The notes below the pieces were generated by a model. That model did not search any database. It worked only from the letters and a program-made list of their open reading frames with translations, and was not told the origin of the DNA. Below, piece after piece: positions 5,129-27,323 of a stretch of 34,240 nucleotides of DNA (position 1 is the first letter of the stretch; each line of letters begins with the position of its first letter). Origin of the DNA: Pirellula sp. (lineage in GTDB: Bacteria; Planctomycetota; Planctomycetia; Pirellulales; Pirellulaceae); assembly GCA_025459355.1 (NCBI GenBank), contig JALOQS010000022.1:1-34240 (forward strand), in the 5' to 3' direction. A program made the translations under genes and the position numbers.

Positions 5129-6146
5129 GTGTTTCGAATTCGTGAAGCTACACTCAATGACCTAGACGAACTCTGGGCGTTAATTGGACAGGCCAGCGTT
5201 GGCATGACTTCTTTGCAAATTGACAAGGATACGCTTCGAGACAGACTTGAAAAATCGGTTTTTGCCTTCTCCAAATCGATAGCTAAAGCAGAGGGGGCAC
5301 CGTACGTGCTGGTGCTGGAAGATCTAACGTCCAATTCACTAGTGGGGACTTCTTGCATCTTTTCAAAGACTGGAGGGTACGAGCCGTTTTACGCCTACAA
5401 GATTGAGAGCACTAAAGCGATCAGTGAGCTATTGCAGTTAGAGACACTCGTTCATTCACTTCACCTGGTGACGGAGCACAATGGGCCCACCGAGATTGGT
5501 AGCCTACGGTAAAGGATGTGGTCGTTTGCTGAGTTTAAGTCGCTTTCTTTACATGGCAGCGCATCCCAAGAGGTTCGCCAGCACTACCATCGCGGAAATG
5601 CGTGGGCATCAAGACGAGCAAGGGATCAGTCCGTTTTGGGAAGCGATCGGGGCACACTTTTTTAAGGTCGATTTTCCGAGAGCAGATTCGCTTTCTATGA
5701 TCGACAAAAAGTTCATCCGAGATTTGATGCCGAGGTATCCCATTTATCTGGAGTTGCTTCCACACGATGCGGTCGAAGCGATCGGGCAGGTTCATGCTCA
5801 AACCAAGCCTGCGTTGGCAATGCTTGAGGGTGAGGGATTTCGAAGAAACTCGCTTATCGATATCTTCGATGGCGGACCTGTCGTGGAATGTGAAACCGCA
5901 AAAATTAAGGCCGTGGCGAACTCCAAAGTGGCGAGCTGGAAACTTGTAGAATCCTCGGGAGAGCACAAAGCATTAGTGGCTCGCCTCGAACGGCCATTTA
6001 TCGCTATCGAAACCAACGTCGACTTTGATAATCAGCATAGTGAGTCTTGTGTCGGCTTAACGCAAACCGCCACGGATTTGCTGCAATTATCGCCAGGGGA
6101 AAAAACGATGGTTCTCATTTTGGATCAGAAACCAAGCCAAGGTTAG
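5129..6146 (+). pseudogene. astA: Arginine N-succinyltransferase, frameshifted
   Basis: Two overlapping frames together make one AstA. Bases 5129-5512 give the N-terminal part (FRIREATLNDLDELWALI, PYVLVLEDLTSNSLVGTSCI). Bases from about 5508 to 6146 in the +1-shifted frame give the rest (SRFLYMAAHPKRF, AEMRGHQDEQGISPFWEAIG, MPRYPIYLELLP, IDIFDGGP). The family enzyme transfers succinyl from succinyl-CoA to arginine, the first step of the AST catabolic pathway. Family members have about eight residues (of the type FLxPxxRK) between the TL/SL strand and the GxGxxLLS loop. Here only four bases remain, consistent with loss of about 20 bases and not of a single base. A GTG start follows a good GAGG site. 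Combined length is otherwise normal. No other ast genes are adjacent. Confidence 0.88.
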
Positions 6147-23241: not shown

Positions 23242-23339
23242 GCTATAAATTGTCGGGCATCATGCTGTGAGTCGGCAGCAGATCGGGTAGACTTTCGCGA
23301 GTATTCCCGTTTCCTTTGCTGCACAGGCTTGCCATTACG

Positions 23340-25037
23340 ATGTCGGATAAGATTCACTTTTCTTGCCCCTACTGTAGCACTCAACTCGCTGTCGCTTCAG
23401 CCTACGCAGGTCAACAAGCCAAGTGCCCAGGGTGCGGCGCCATCGTGGCTGTGCCTCTATCGGCAGAAGAATTGGACTCTGACGAATCTGATTCAATGGA
23501 GTCGGACGCAACAAAGGAATGGAATCGTACGGCACCCTACTTCTCTCCTTTATCAACGCCACGAACTGATCAAACCAATTCGACTGGCTCCGTTCCTCCG
23601 AAATTGCAGAGCCCAGAGTTTCAAAGCGCAGAATCACGGAACAACGATTACGCCGAGCCTCGCGCTGGACAAACCTACGCGGCTACAACCCCGGGCCCCT
23701 CGTTCGGGCGTTCCTTGTTAGGCCTAGTCGCTGCGGTTCTGGTCGGGTTTTTCTGCGCCGCAGCGTGGCTCGCTGTACGCATAGCTTTCCAGCTTGAAAT
23801 CGGTATTTTGGCGTGGGCCATCGGTGCATTGATTGGTTTAACCGCCGGCTCCATTGCCAAAAATCCGTCTGCGATCTACTGCTCCTTGGTTGCAGGCGTT
23901 GCGGGTTGTTCGATCTTGGCCTCTAAGCTTGCCATGGTCGCAATCATCATGATTGTGGCGTTGGGGGTGGACGTCTTTGAACAAATCCAGAACATGTTCC
24001 TCTCGAACAAATACGAGCATGCTTATGTCGATCAACAAATCGCCGACAATCAGTACCAAGGGGAAAAGCTCGTATTAGCCGAGACCTTTAACAGAGGTTA
24101 TTTCGAAGAGTTGGATGCTCAAACGATTGTCATCAACGGACGTGAAATCGACGAAAGGAATGGCAACACCGAATTGATGGGCAAGCCGATGGCCGAGTTT
24201 CGAAAAGAAATTCGAATCGCGGTCTCAAACGCAACGAAAGAACAAAAGGAAGCCTGGATCGAAAACGCTCGAAAACGACATCCCGATTGGATAGTCGATC
24301 CCAACTATGCTACCGCCGCCAAAATTCTCATGCTGAGCGAACCCGGTAAGCTTGACGAAGAACTTAAAAAGCAAGCGGCTTACGAAGTGCGGGTCGCTGA
24401 CTATCTTCTTCAATCGAACGACGCATCGGACAACTATCTTGAGGAAACTCCGAACGAAATCTTTATGCTCCGATCGGACACGCTCAAAACACTCGTGCGT
24501 GCAAAGCTCCGAGAACTGGATTCCCAAGGCTTGAAAGATCTGCTCAAAGAAGCGGCCGCAAAAGCTCCCACGTTTGTGCCTAACGAAACGGAGTTTATCG
24601 TCATTGTGGATGAGCTGCTAAACAAAGGGGAACTGCCCGCCGAGATTCGCGAGCATGCAACCAACCGGGTTAGCTATGTGACCGGAAAGGACTTCTCAGG
24701 TGAGCTTTTCGTAAATCTAGGAGAGCCCGAATTCGTCGAAAAAGAACGGCAGCTACGTGAGATTGCCAATCCCATTTGGCTCGCGAGCACGACCGAAGAC
24801 ATCGATCGAAGAATCGCGGAATCCCAACAGCGACATAAAGGCTGGTCCCCGGACTCTACCAATCCTCAATTTTTAGCTTCCAATGAATTAAAAGAGAACA
24901 TCAAAGAAGAAATTGGTGACGGAAGCTTTGTTGGTACGTTAAAAATGGTGTTCAATGCCAGCGATTTGCTATGGCTCTTTCTCGGGTTTGTCTCAGCCTT
25001 CGGTACCGCTCGGTCGCGAGCCGACCGCTCCGCTTGA
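23340..25037 (+). CDS. Membrane protein with N-terminal zinc ribbon
   Basis: The start is set at ATG 23340, just before a zinc ribbon (HFSCPYCSTQLAVASAYAGQ followed by KCPGCG), a CxxC-x17-CxxC pattern common at the N-terminus of planctomycete membrane proteins. A Ser/Pro/Thr-rich linker reaches about residue 115. Hydrophobic helices follow at about 120-145, 145-165 and 170-205. A long charged helical domain of about 330 residues follows, with repeated Lys/Glu-rich segments, and the protein ends with one more hydrophobic segment (LLWLFLGFVSAFG). No enzymatic motif is seen. Its 3' end overlaps the convergent transporter gene by 45 bases. The function is unknown. Confidence 0.78.
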   Translation: MSDKIHFSCPYCSTQLAVASAYAGQQAKCPGCGAIVAVPLSAEELDSDESDSMESDATKEWNRTAPYFSPLSTPRTDQTNSTGSVPPKLQSPEFQSAESRNNDYAEPRAGQTYAATTPGPSFGRSLLGLVAAVLVGFFCAAAWLAVRIAFQLEIGILAWAIGALIGLTAGSIAKNPSAIYCSLVAGVAGCSILASKLAMVAIIMIVALGVDVFEQIQNMFLSNKYEHAYVDQQIADNQYQGEKLVLAETFNRGYFEELDAQTIVINGREIDERNGNTELMGKPMAEFRKEIRIAVSNATKEQKEAWIENARKRHPDWIVDPNYATAAKILMLSEPGKLDEELKKQAAYEVRVADYLLQSNDASDNYLEETPNEIFMLRSDTLKTLVRAKLRELDSQGLKDLLKEAAAKAPTFVPNETEFIVIVDELLNKGELPAEIREHATNRVSYVTGKDFSGELFVNLGEPEFVEKERQLREIANPIWLASTTEDIDRRIAESQQRHKGWSPDSTNPQFLASNELKENIKEEIGDGSFVGTLKMVFNASDLLWLFLGFVSAFGTARSRADRSA

Positions 25038-26354
25038 TTCGGTCTGGTTTTGGCGAAGCCTTTTGATAAAAACCGATGCGATCAACACGAATGCTAGGCT
25101 GACGAGGGAACCCCACCAACAGAATCTAAGAAACTGATTCAAAAACAACTCTGGGTTAACGCCACCACGAGTCGATGCACCCGTTCGAAAAAACATAACC
25201 CCGACATAACCGACATAGCCAATCGAATCGACCACATACATCAAAAATCCAATGTTGCCTCGATCTCGCGTCAGTGCAATGAGTCGTTCAAAAACGGTCG
25301 TGTGAATGGCAACATAGGGTAGATAGAGACCTGCACCGAGAAGCGTCATGAACACGATAGGACTGAATCCCATGTCCTCTCTCATTCGTAGCGCCATAAG
25401 TATTATTGCAAAACCCGCAGCGGATACCGCGAGCGACGCATAGAGTGCATAGAGGTTGTCTCGAATCCAGACTGAAGCCCCGTTAACGATCAAGACCAAT
25501 AACGCTACTTGGAGCTCAATCGTCGTAAAATCGCCCGGTCTCACATCTTTCGATAATCCCGCCAATATCTCTGGCGCAAAATCGTCTCGCAAACTTCTTA
25601 GAATCGTCGCCACAAAGTAAACGATTGCAATCGAGAGCAGCGTTATGCCGTATTTGCTAAGCATGTGCATCCGATCCTCGCCCGTCATGGGTACACGTTG
25701 ACTTCGCTGCTGCATATCCGCCAGATTGGGAGCGGGGATTTGAGTCAGCATCCATACGCTAAAACAGATGGGCACAATAAACAAAGCACCTGCTAAAAAG
25801 GGCATCCATCGTTCGGCAACAGCCGGCTGCAACTGAAGTTGGTTTTGTAAAAACTCAAGCAAATACTGCCCAACGGTCTTGGAGAAACCGCCCGCCAAAA
25901 TGAAACTTGTGCACAAGCCCGCTGTCAAGGCTTCTGTCATGCGCCGCCCCTCTAGAAAGCCCAGCACCAAACCAAAAACCATGCCTAGCGGTAATCCGTT
26001 GAGCCCAATCGCAACGATATGCCATGGGCTCGGCAAAACCGAAAAAAGCAAAAGAGCCCCTTCAGCAATCGCAATGAGAATCAAAATACCTGCCGCACGA
26101 TGAGATGGACGCATCTGCGAGATCACTTTGACCCCAATCAGTTTGGAGATCAAATAACCGAGCACCTGGGTGCCCACCAATACGCTCTTTTGATCCCAAT
26201 CCGCTATGGTTTCGCCCTGGTAGCTCGCCGCAGTAAAGGGCTTCCGAAACATGTACATGCAAAAGTAGGTCGCAAACGCAGCGAACATCGCCCAAGCGTT
26301 AAGTCGAAAGGCCGACTTTTCCAGCCATTGAGAAACCGGTGATGACGAACTCAT
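24993..26354 (-). CDS. DUF5690-type MFS transporter
   Basis: This 453-residue protein has about twelve hydrophobic helices. The N-terminal signature FATYFCMYMFRKPFTAASY matches the DUF5690 family and recalls the first helix of organophosphate:phosphate antiporters (GlpT/UhpT group). GLPLGMVFGLVLGFLEGRRM is the characteristic cytoplasmic loop region. No substrate is proven for DUF5690. It overlaps the PhnZ-like gene by four bases (ATGA), so the two are translationally coupled. This suggests import of a phosphonate or a related compound (inference). The C-terminus (SSGAVGSRPSGTEG) is polar and overlaps the convergent gene at 23340-25037. Confidence 0.85.
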   Translation of the reverse strand: MSSSSPVSQWLEKSAFRLNAWAMFAAFATYFCMYMFRKPFTAASYQGETIADWDQKSVLVGTQVLGYLISKLIGVKVISQMRPSHRAAGILILIAIAEGALLLFSVLPSPWHIVAIGLNGLPLGMVFGLVLGFLEGRRMTEALTAGLCTSFILAGGFSKTVGQYLLEFLQNQLQLQPAVAERWMPFLAGALFIVPICFSVWMLTQIPAPNLADMQQRSQRVPMTGEDRMHMLSKYGITLLSIAIVYFVATILRSLRDDFAPEILAGLSKDVRPGDFTTIELQVALLVLIVNGASVWIRDNLYALYASLAVSAAGFAIILMALRMREDMGFSPIVFMTLLGAGLYLPYVAIHTTVFERLIALTRDRGNIGFLMYVVDSIGYVGYVGVMFFRTGASTRGGVNPELFLNQFLRFCWWGSLVSLAFVLIASVFIKRLRQNQTESSGAVGSRPSGTEG

Positions 26355-26917
26355 CGTACCGAACGGCTTCGATCGAGGCTCGCCTGAAGTCGTTCCGAAA
26401 AAAACGAGATGTCAGGAATCACCATCTCCGAATCCTTTGCCTGATCATCCCATCGCCTCAGTGCAATAGCTTGTTCGAAAAAAGGCTCTTGCCGAAACTC
26501 TTGCAATTCCGCTTCGGACATCGGCCCTCCTTGATCAAGATAACTTTTATACGACGTAGGTGATAATGTTTCGCAATAGTCTGGGGTCACAGTGCACAGA
26601 TATCTCTTTGCCGCGACATGCAGGCGAATGGGATCGGCCACCTCGCGTCCGAAATGTTCGCAGAGCCAGTGATAGGCTCGATTCTCGTGACCATCATCCA
26701 GGTTCTCTAGGTCGCTGGCCGGTAATTTATCCTCTCCCAAGATATGTCCAATATCATGCAATAACGCAGCGACGATCTGCGAATCGACAGCCCCCTGTCG
26801 TTCTGCCAAAACGGCCGATTGGATGGCATGCTCGGCCTGCGTAACTTTTTCGTCGCCATAGATTTCAGTTCCTCGCTGTCGGTACAAGGCGATGATGTTC
26901 TCAGGTGTTGGTTGCAT
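26351..26917 (-). CDS. phnZ: PhnZ-type HD-domain oxygenase, phosphonate degradation
   Basis: I choose ATG 26917 (188 residues, as in PhnZ) over the open extension to 27088. PhnZ is a mixed-valent di-iron oxygenase that cleaves the C-P bond of 2-amino-1-hydroxyethylphosphonate to glycine and phosphate. The expected residues are present: Tyr20 and Glu23 (YGDE), iron ligands His30, His54-Asp55 (ALLHDIGH), His77, His100 and Asp157, and substrate residues His58, Lys104 (HVAAKRYLC), Ser122 and Arg154. The relatives' LDQGGPMS and LRRWDDQAK blocks are also kept. No PhnY hydroxylase gene is visible. Related enzymes act on other hydroxyphosphonates, so the exact substrate is open. The symbol marks similarity, not proven function. 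Confidence 0.85.
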   Translation of the reverse strand: MQPTPENIIALYRQRGTEIYGDEKVTQAEHAIQSAVLAERQGAVDSQIVAALLHDIGHILGEDKLPASDLENLDDGHENRAYHWLCEHFGREVADPIRLHVAAKRYLCTVTPDYCETLSPTSYKSYLDQGGPMSEAELQEFRQEPFFEQAIALRRWDDQAKDSEMVIPDISFFSERLQASLDRSRSVR

Positions 26918-27323
26918 ACAGCGAGTTGAATTCAGAAAAGTGCGATGGTGGTCGATGTGCAGTGATGGTCGATCTTGGTCGATAAAACCTGTTGGTCGAT
27001 AAAACGTGATGGTTCTAAGCCAGAGCCTAGCCAAAGCAAAGTCATCCACGATATCGGTGGCCGACTCGGGCTTCGGACGGATAAGCATAACGAAAACACT
27101 TGAACAAATGCTATCTTTAGAAGGCGTTTTTCGTGTGGTTTCCGTTAAGAATCACCTCCTCGATTTCCTGCAATCGATCGAAATCGGGTCGTCTGATGTT
27201 CCTCTAAACTACCCATTCTGCCCGTACCGTCAGTCCCTCGTAAAGCGGCCTAGCAACCGATTGCCGATCTGTTGTATTACCAAAATCGGTGCGTTCGACG
27301 AATCTAGATCGAGGGATAAAACG
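26918..27323. other. Divergent region between the phnZ-like gene and flgI
   Basis: The 406 bases hold no convincing gene: the frames extending both flanking genes upstream into this stretch match neither family. Four copies of TGGTCGAT lie at 26949-27000, close to the phnZ-like start. The flgI start has a clear GAGGG site just inside the right edge. No sigma-factor box is obvious to me. Confidence 0.5.
26949..27000. repeat. Four direct repeats of TGGTCGAT, possible operator
   Basis: Copies start at 26949, 26966, 26976 and 26993, giving spacings of 17, 10 and 17 bases. They lie 32-83 bases upstream of the phnZ-like start codon. Two copies extend further as TGGTCGATAAAAC. Regular spacing near helical-turn multiples suggests a regulator site, but slippage is an alternative. 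Confidence 0.5.

Follow-up and report, generated by a model that had tools for sequence, protein, structure and literature searches.

An HD-domain oxygenase gene overlapping a DUF5690 gene in Pirellula sp. and its probable place in aminophosphonate catabolism

Two adjacent genes on the minus strand of a 34,240-base stretch of Pirellula sp. DNA, here called the window, are the subject of this work. The first encodes an HD-domain protein of 188 aa (P0001) and the second a membrane protein of 453 aa (P0002), which belongs to the family DUF5690. The window is one entire contig (C147) of an assembly of 5.1 Mb, which is 76.5% complete and may lack about one quarter of the genome. A first-pass annotation, made by a model from the sequence without database searches, had described the pair as a PhnZ-type oxygenase with a transporter; its coordinates (26917-26351 and 26354-24993) and the four-base overlap that it reported proved to be right. 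The features of the locus are the following:

26351..26917, minus strand: gene of the predicted HD-domain oxygenase of the PhnZ/TmpB type, 188 aa (P0001); TIGR03276 204.5 bits, TmpB (6npa) E 1e-33, 12 of 12 placed residues
24993..26354, minus strand: gene of the DUF5690 membrane protein, 453 aa (P0002), a probable aminophosphonate transporter; PF18943 402 bits, about 12 hydrophobic segments, gene neighbourhood
26351..26354, minus strand: ATGA overlap, which holds the stop of the HD gene and the start of the DUF5690 gene; read directly
26858..26860, minus strand: codon of Tyr20, the first residue of the YxxE lid (Tyr20/Glu23); from residue mapping, lid role after PMC8177086

The frame of the HD gene stays open upstream as far as 27088. 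We took 26917 as the start because position 4 of the TIGR03276 profile aligns with residue 5 counted from there and because the homologues in relatives are mostly called at 182-224 aa. Since a flagellar P-ring gene (FlgI, 217 bits) starts at 27006 on the plus strand, divergent from the pair, the pair has no additional partner upstream. A 573-aa open frame on the plus strand (23316-25037) converges on the pair, and its last 45 bases (24993-25037) are shared with the 3’ end of the DUF5690 gene. The ATGA overlap may couple the translation of the two genes.

A search of P0001 against solved structures yielded two significant relatives, TmpB (6npa; 41% identity, 71/175 aligned positions) and PhnZ (4mlm, E 5e-24; 33%, 56/169), while the remaining rows, with E 0.8, were unrelated proteins. 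The first-pass annotation had placed the PhnZ lid pair, six iron ligands and a lysine, a serine and an arginine on P0001, and the alignment confirmed each of them. The lid pair Y24 and E27 of PhnZ corresponds to Y20 and E23, the diiron ligands H34, H58, D59, H80, H104 and D161 to H30, H54, D55, H77, H100 and D157, and K108, S126 and R158 to K104, S122 and R154. The offset is four everywhere except for H80, where it is three. The second histidine of the HDxGH motif (H58 in P0001) is kept as well, which makes 12 of 12 residues, and TmpB shares all the residues placed on PhnZ. We take K104, S122 and R154 to be the residues for the phosphonate.

The same twelve residues are kept widely. In an alignment of P0001 with 32 of the 35 HD matches from the database loci described below (alignment A4; L152, the short L159 and L176 were left out) they are invariant, save that H54 is an aspartate in one row (L155), and all twelve were found in 14 of 14 further HD genes near DUF5690 in two phylum samples. 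The roles of the lid and of the ligands have been reviewed, and the YxxE lid, present in PhnZ and TmpB, is missing in MIOX (PMC8177086). It is thus very improbable that P0001 is an ordinary HD phosphohydrolase paired with DUF5690 by chance: the lid as well as the lysine, serine and arginine are invariant, the sole significant solved relatives are TmpB and PhnZ, and the linkage to DUF5690 described below is far above background. As to the first half of this explanation, an ordinary phosphohydrolase was rejected, since lid, ligands and phosphonate residues are all kept.

On the profile TIGR03276 (“phosphonate degradation HD-domain oxygenase”, a hypothetical equivalog) P0001 scored 204.5 bits, the cut-off being 214.6. 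Its scores on the models of the Gimesia hydroxymethylphosphonate oxygenase PhnZ1 and of TmpB were 158.6 and 157.6, respectively, both with a cut-off of 300. Among 60 genomes from the window's own genome, its genus, family and order, 34 have a match of at least 195 bits to TIGR03276; 19 of them pass the cut-off and 15, including the window's genome, fall just short. Based on the residues, the solved relatives and the model scores, P0001 is assigned to the PhnZ/TmpB-type oxygenases nearest the TIGR03276 group, in line with the first-pass annotation, and by this homology it would be an additional member of an already known group.

The window's genome and four others of the genus also contain HD paralogues in which the HD motif is lost and no more than one of the six metal ligands is left (L118:11041-11622:+, L064:12388-13002:+, L119:7524-8141:+, L120:7601-8209:- and L121:6251-6853:-). 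All are still open frames, the paralogues in L119 and L121 retain a histidine at the position of H77, and the one in L064 sits within a phosphonate cluster. Possibly these are pseudo-enzymes with a regulatory or structural role.

The second protein, P0002, matches PF18943 with 402.4 bits (cut-off 25) over profile positions 1-381 of 382. Hydropathy averaged over 81 homologues gave 18 pieces above the threshold, which we merged by eye to approximately 12 membrane segments, with a charged loop (about 204-235) separating two sets of six. The 12 transmembrane helices of the first-pass annotation are therefore a fair reading of the profile, but not proven by it. Residues invariant in all 81 rows include R37, K56, K71, R86, E135, R137, E141, R253, R256, H351, E356, R357 and D376.

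The first-pass annotation had also noted that the first helix recalls phosphate-ester antiporters. This likeness is visible in the sequence (YFCMYMFRKPF in DUF5690, YAAYYLVRKNF in GlpT), but its backing by profile comparison is weak. Profile comparison by hhalign with GlpT, UhpT and UhpC gave a probability of 70% with alignment A1, which holds 26 of 39 DUF5690 proteins, and of 6% with the larger alignment A3 of 81 rows. With A3 the score was 30.1 for the set of organophosphate:phosphate antiporters and 25.6-29.3 for its single members, against 14.8-22.0 for eight other carriers of the major facilitator superfamily (MFS) and two non-MFS carriers. In the weak 70% alignment the invariant R37, K71 and R253 stand opposite R45, K80 and R269 of GlpT, its basic phosphate-binding residues. 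P0002 had no MFS_1 match in Pfam at E values up to 1, and BLASTP of DUF5690 against GlpT revealed nothing significant (best E 0.75). A kinship of DUF5690 with GlpT-type antiporters is, on these sequence comparisons, a hint and not a result.

DUF5690 is present in 41 of the 60 genomes, and in the relatives a recurrent cluster surrounds the DUF5690 and TIGR03276 genes. Its other members were identified from one representative each, all from one genome (G002): a PbfD-type enzyme (TIGR03364, 436.9 bits, cut-off 285.1), the phosphonoacetaldehyde hydrolase PhnX (TIGR01422, 326.2 bits, cut-off 220) and the dehydrogenase HpnZ (TIGR03366, “putative phosphonate catabolism associated alcohol dehydrogenase”, 368.2 bits, cut-off 328.1). 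At least one of HD, PbfD, PhnX and a PhnX-like gene lies near DUF5690 in 26 of 42 loci of the relatives. The window's protein, in a tree built from 39 DUF5690 proteins and rooted at the midpoint, clusters with those of 15 congeneric genomes (support 0.997) and branches outside the remainder of this group (support 0.593). Four of the 15 genomes have pbfD, phnX, the HD gene and the DUF5690 gene in this order on one strand with the dehydrogenase gene divergent, two have phnX-HD-DUF5690 at a contig end and two have pbfD-phnX-DUF5690, while a seven-genome subclade has none of the cluster genes nearby. Given these gene orders, the window's pair is best read as the tail of a pbfD-phnX-HD-DUF5690 run.

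In the window, which is the whole contig, neither pbfD nor phnX lies beside the HD and DUF5690 genes. The same genome, however, contains on contig C434 a single frame (L122:2871-4517:-) with a PbfD part (TIGR03364, 291.3 bits, cut-off 285.1, the start being lost at the contig end) and a PhnX-like part (TIGR03351, 225.2 bits, cut-off 218.9), which is the sole such fusion among the loci L062-L209. The first-pass annotation had proposed a self-contained two-gene module of uptake and cleavage. This is not supported: a free-standing two-gene invention was rejected, since the relatives have the larger cluster, and the fusion is encoded elsewhere in the genome.

At least 512 DUF5690 relatives were found on named contigs of the database, of which the best 80 were used; this set therefore leans to close homologues, and for this reason two less biased phylum samples were taken as well. 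By title most of the 80 loci come from Planctomycetota and Verrucomicrobiota, the others from Bacteroidota and a small number of further groups; some are the same contigs as the loci of the relatives, so that the two sets overlap. Genes were tagged with profile hidden Markov models built from the clusters of the relatives, with thresholds chosen after the score gaps had been seen; for DUF5690, PhnX and PhnX-like genes the thresholds were slightly lower in the phylum samples than in the named loci.

Within 8 kb of DUF5690 the 80 named loci contain HD in 35 cases, PbfD in 33, PhnX in 29, PhnX-like in 14 and the HpnZ dehydrogenase in 56. Any of these five aminophosphonate genes is present in 72 of the 80 loci, or in 58 when the dehydrogenase is excluded; when only the 48 loci with 5 kb to either side are considered, 46 have any of the five and 39 any of the first four. 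In the phylum of Mucilaginibacter oryzae (Bacteroidota) DUF5690 exceeds the cut-off in 29 of 296 genomes (one further match, in G629, lies below it with 23.1 bits), and 20 of 30 loci have a cluster gene within 8 kb (HD 9, PbfD 16, PhnX-like 17, PhnX 1). In six of the 30 the genes for PhnX-like, DUF5690 and PbfD follow one another closely in this order on the same strand, and the surrounding stretch has no canonical PhnX (L246, L251, L255, L256, L257 and L261). In the window's phylum DUF5690 was found in 23 of 294 genomes, and 23 Planctomycetota loci other than the window's have any of the five genes in 13 cases, any of the first four in nine and HD in five. The tie of DUF5690 to phosphonate use, which the first-pass annotation had supposed, is thus supported (72/80, 20/30 and 13/23 loci). 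The first-pass annotation had named rarity of PhnZ-like genes beside DUF5690 as a refuting result; the survey shows such an HD gene to be a common neighbour but not the rule. DUF5690 lies near PbfD, PhnX or PhnX-like genes, or the HpnZ dehydrogenase, about as often as near HD, or more often, so that its link is with the aminophosphonate genes as a set.

Two controls argue against a chance pairing. In the first, tagged genes at 0-3.5 kb and at 3.5-7 kb from DUF5690 were counted in loci whose sequence extends 7 kb or more to either side, where background predicts equal counts. The counts were 100 versus 0 in 42 of the best 80 named loci (with one more gene beyond 7 kb), 39 versus 2 in 25 Bacteroidota loci, 22 versus 0 in 16 Planctomycetota loci and 47 versus 1 in 23 loci of the relatives, one of the 47 being a degenerate HD paralogue. 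In the second, an HD gene of at least 170 bits (a line set after seeing the gap from 172.0 to 60.7) occurs in 23 of the 294 genomes of the phylum, the window's included, and together with DUF5690 in 11, versus 1.8 expected; in six of these 11, again with the window, the two genes are at most 1.4 kb apart. Chance pairing was therefore rejected. Where an HD gene lies within 400 bases of DUF5690 in the named loci, it is upstream in 13 cases with the same and in 13 with the opposite orientation, and downstream in two. This variety of order and strand suggests that the link has outlived rearrangement.

The genes flanking the clusters of the named loci were scanned with Pfam (118 of 143 genes, of up to 700 aa and at most 600 bases from a tagged gene), and 22 families were found in at least two of them. 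Separately, four of ten Bacteroidota neighbour proteins had no Pfam match. A 476-aa protein recurs near DUF5690 in six named loci (for example L140:5487-6914:+ and L148:5679-7106:+); the copy in L140 is an aldehyde dehydrogenase, possibly for an acetaldehyde or phosphonoacetaldehyde step.

The HD enzyme could act on another alpha-hydroxyphosphonate made in the cell, such as the product of a PhnY-type hydroxylase that is encoded elsewhere and acts on methylphosphonate. This would resemble Gimesia maris, whose PhnZ cleaves both (R)-1-hydroxy-2-aminoethylphosphonate (R-HAEP) and hydroxymethylphosphonate (PMC10574752). Indeed, the window's genome encodes two PhyH-family proteins, and one of them (L212:1375-2142:-, contig C120) matches, among the NCBIfam models, that of the Gimesia methylphosphonate hydroxylase best. 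However, with 80.7 bits this match is far from the cut-off of 500, neither PhyH gene lies on the window's contig, and P0001 scores lower on the Gimesia PhnZ1 model than on TIGR03276. Moreover, PhyH and TauD are both missing from the 22 recurrent families, single occurrences being not all listed, and TauD had no match in the genome at its completeness of 76.5%. We consider this explanation quite unlikely. In that same genome neither PhnY nor TmpA was found above cut-off, both PhyH proteins scoring far below that of PhnY. In the window itself no hydroxylase and no phosphonate importer was revealed among 20 other frames scanned with Pfam and three short-chain dehydrogenase/reductase genes, with some short frames unscanned. 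The latter agrees with the first-pass annotation, which had seen no PhnY hydroxylase and no ATP-binding cassette (ABC) phosphonate importer nearby. Since no partner alpha-ketoglutarate hydroxylase was found, the pair was not filed as a PhnY*/PhnZ or TmpA/TmpB pathway.

Further, DUF5690 could belong to the pathway without importing a phosphonate, either as an exporter of the phosphate or aldehyde product or as a sensor resembling UhpC. The direction of transport is unreadable from sequence, UhpC, a sensing relative of GlpT, is about as close to DUF5690 as UhpT (26.9 versus 25.6), and a branched-chain-type ABC permease domain in two of the 118 flanking genes indicates that other carriers can be near. 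On the other hand, DUF5690 adjoins catabolic genes in most of the loci examined, and the 22 recurrent families include neither a phosphonate-binding protein nor a histidine kinase, with a response-regulator domain present in two of the 118 genes. We consider an exporter or sensor unlikely.

We favour the view that the pair is the transport and oxidative cleavage end of an aminophosphonate catabolic gene set, in which DUF5690 imports aminophosphonates and the HD enzyme cleaves R-HAEP, and we put its probability at roughly 0.7. DUF5690 would bring an aminophosphonate through the inner membrane, possibly exchanging it for phosphate. The HD protein would be a mixed-valent diiron oxygenase which splits the C-P bond of an (R)-alpha-hydroxy aminophosphonate with O2, and its likeliest substrate would be R-HAEP, giving glycine and phosphate. 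2-Aminoethylphosphonate (AEP) and its N-methyl form may be used in the same genome by a separate route through the PbfD/PhnX-like fusion on the other contig. All these functional assignments rest on homology and gene order. An amino substrate is favoured because the lid glutamate, which reaches hydrogen-bonding distance of the substrate amino group (PMC8177086), is invariant here. Together with the published work on R-HAEP, including the cleavage of R-HAEP to glycine and phosphate by PhnZ (PMC8154272), this points to R-HAEP as the most likely substrate for the HD enzyme, and DUF5690 would most likely carry aminophosphonates in general. The idea of the first-pass annotation that the imported compound may already be hydroxylated agrees with published thinking on R-HAEP (PMC8154272, PMC11203657). 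In short, the observation behind the first-pass annotation was confirmed and its interpretation is partly supported.

Several points weigh against the favoured view. We know of no transport or enzyme assay for the HD protein or for DUF5690, and the R-HAEP reading leaves the source of the hydroxylated substrate unaccounted for. P0001 remains below the TIGR03276 cut-off. No PhnX above cut-off was found in the window's genome, the best match at its present completeness being the fusion on C434 with 91.9 bits. Searches with P0002 and with the 81-row profile yielded no solved relative of DUF5690, and its likeness to GlpT, UhpT and UhpC is weak. None of HD, PbfD, PhnX and PhnX-like is present in 16 of the 42 loci of the relatives, some of which are cut by contig ends, the HD gene is near DUF5690 in just 35/80, 9/30 and 5/23 loci, and ten of the 30 Bacteroidota loci as well as ten of the 23 Planctomycetota loci have none of the five genes in the stretch. 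DUF5690 may therefore also act elsewhere.

It is tempting to go one step further and to regard DUF5690 as a family of aminophosphonate transporters, so far not labelled as one, in Planctomycetota, Verrucomicrobiota and Bacteroidota, distinct in sequence from AepP/GlpT and ABC systems, which would exchange a phosphonate for the phosphate released by PhnX or the HD enzyme. For this proposal, which is tentative, we would give somewhat worse than even odds. If true, DUF5690 would add another carrier family to the well-studied breakdown of aminophosphonates, and once its role were established, these bacteria could be included in surveys of the phosphonate cycle. Neither “DUF5690” nor “PF18943” is mentioned in the limited set of literature searched, which for DUF5690 includes PMC10590968, and no earlier assignment of DUF5690 to the aminophosphonate pathway was found in that set.

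Elsewhere in the window, at 5129-6146 on the plus strand, two frames overlap, of which the frame 5481-6146 matches the C-terminal part of arginine N-succinyltransferase AstA only (profile 135-334 of 337). They represent a split gene or an assembly frameshift.

The favoured reading can be compared with several known systems. With PhnZ and TmpB, P0001 has all twelve placed residues in common at 33% and 41% identity; the PhnY*/PhnZ and TmpA/TmpB pathways differ in that the window has no hydroxylase among the scanned frames and the HD gene adjoins DUF5690 instead. PhnZ homologues were reported in 15 of 1186 phnWX and in 24 of 75 phnWAY clusters, and never with PbfA, the other R-HAEP enzyme (PMC8154272). 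For Achromobacter, a PhnHD of the TIGR03276 clade encoded near phnX and hpnW was proposed by simulation to use HAEP, its function being called unsettled (PMC11203657). These operons are alike in that TIGR03276 is the nearest model and that HpnW, which is of the PbfD type, and PhnX occur without phnW in the operon; the Achromobacter phosphonatase operons carry the phnSTU transport genes, however, while DUF5690 is found here, and P0001 is 10 bits under the TIGR03276 cut-off. Our loci offer a genetic setting for the question raised there, namely the role of TIGR03276-clade oxygenases in clusters which already have PhnX (PMC11203657).

Mariniblastus fucicola is a planctomycete like the source of the window. 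TIGR03364 covers the PbfD enzymes, which convert N-methyl-AEP (M1AEP) and AEP to phosphonoacetaldehyde, and one of them is from this species (PMC10590968). As in its PbfD-PhnX cluster, the window's relatives group pbfD and phnX, here with the HD and DUF5690 genes, whereas the window joins the latter two only. Finally, three AEP transporters are known, among them AepP, a GlpT-like permease which transports AEP, is required for growth on AEP as nitrogen source and has homologues in some Bacteroidetes and Verrucomicrobia (PMC8316502). AepP and DUF5690 are alike as secondary carriers encoded beside aminophosphonate genes, with transport demonstrated for AepP and presumed for DUF5690. They differ in their relation to GlpT, to which AepP is 27.75% identical (PMC8316502), while DUF5690 has no significant pairwise match to it.

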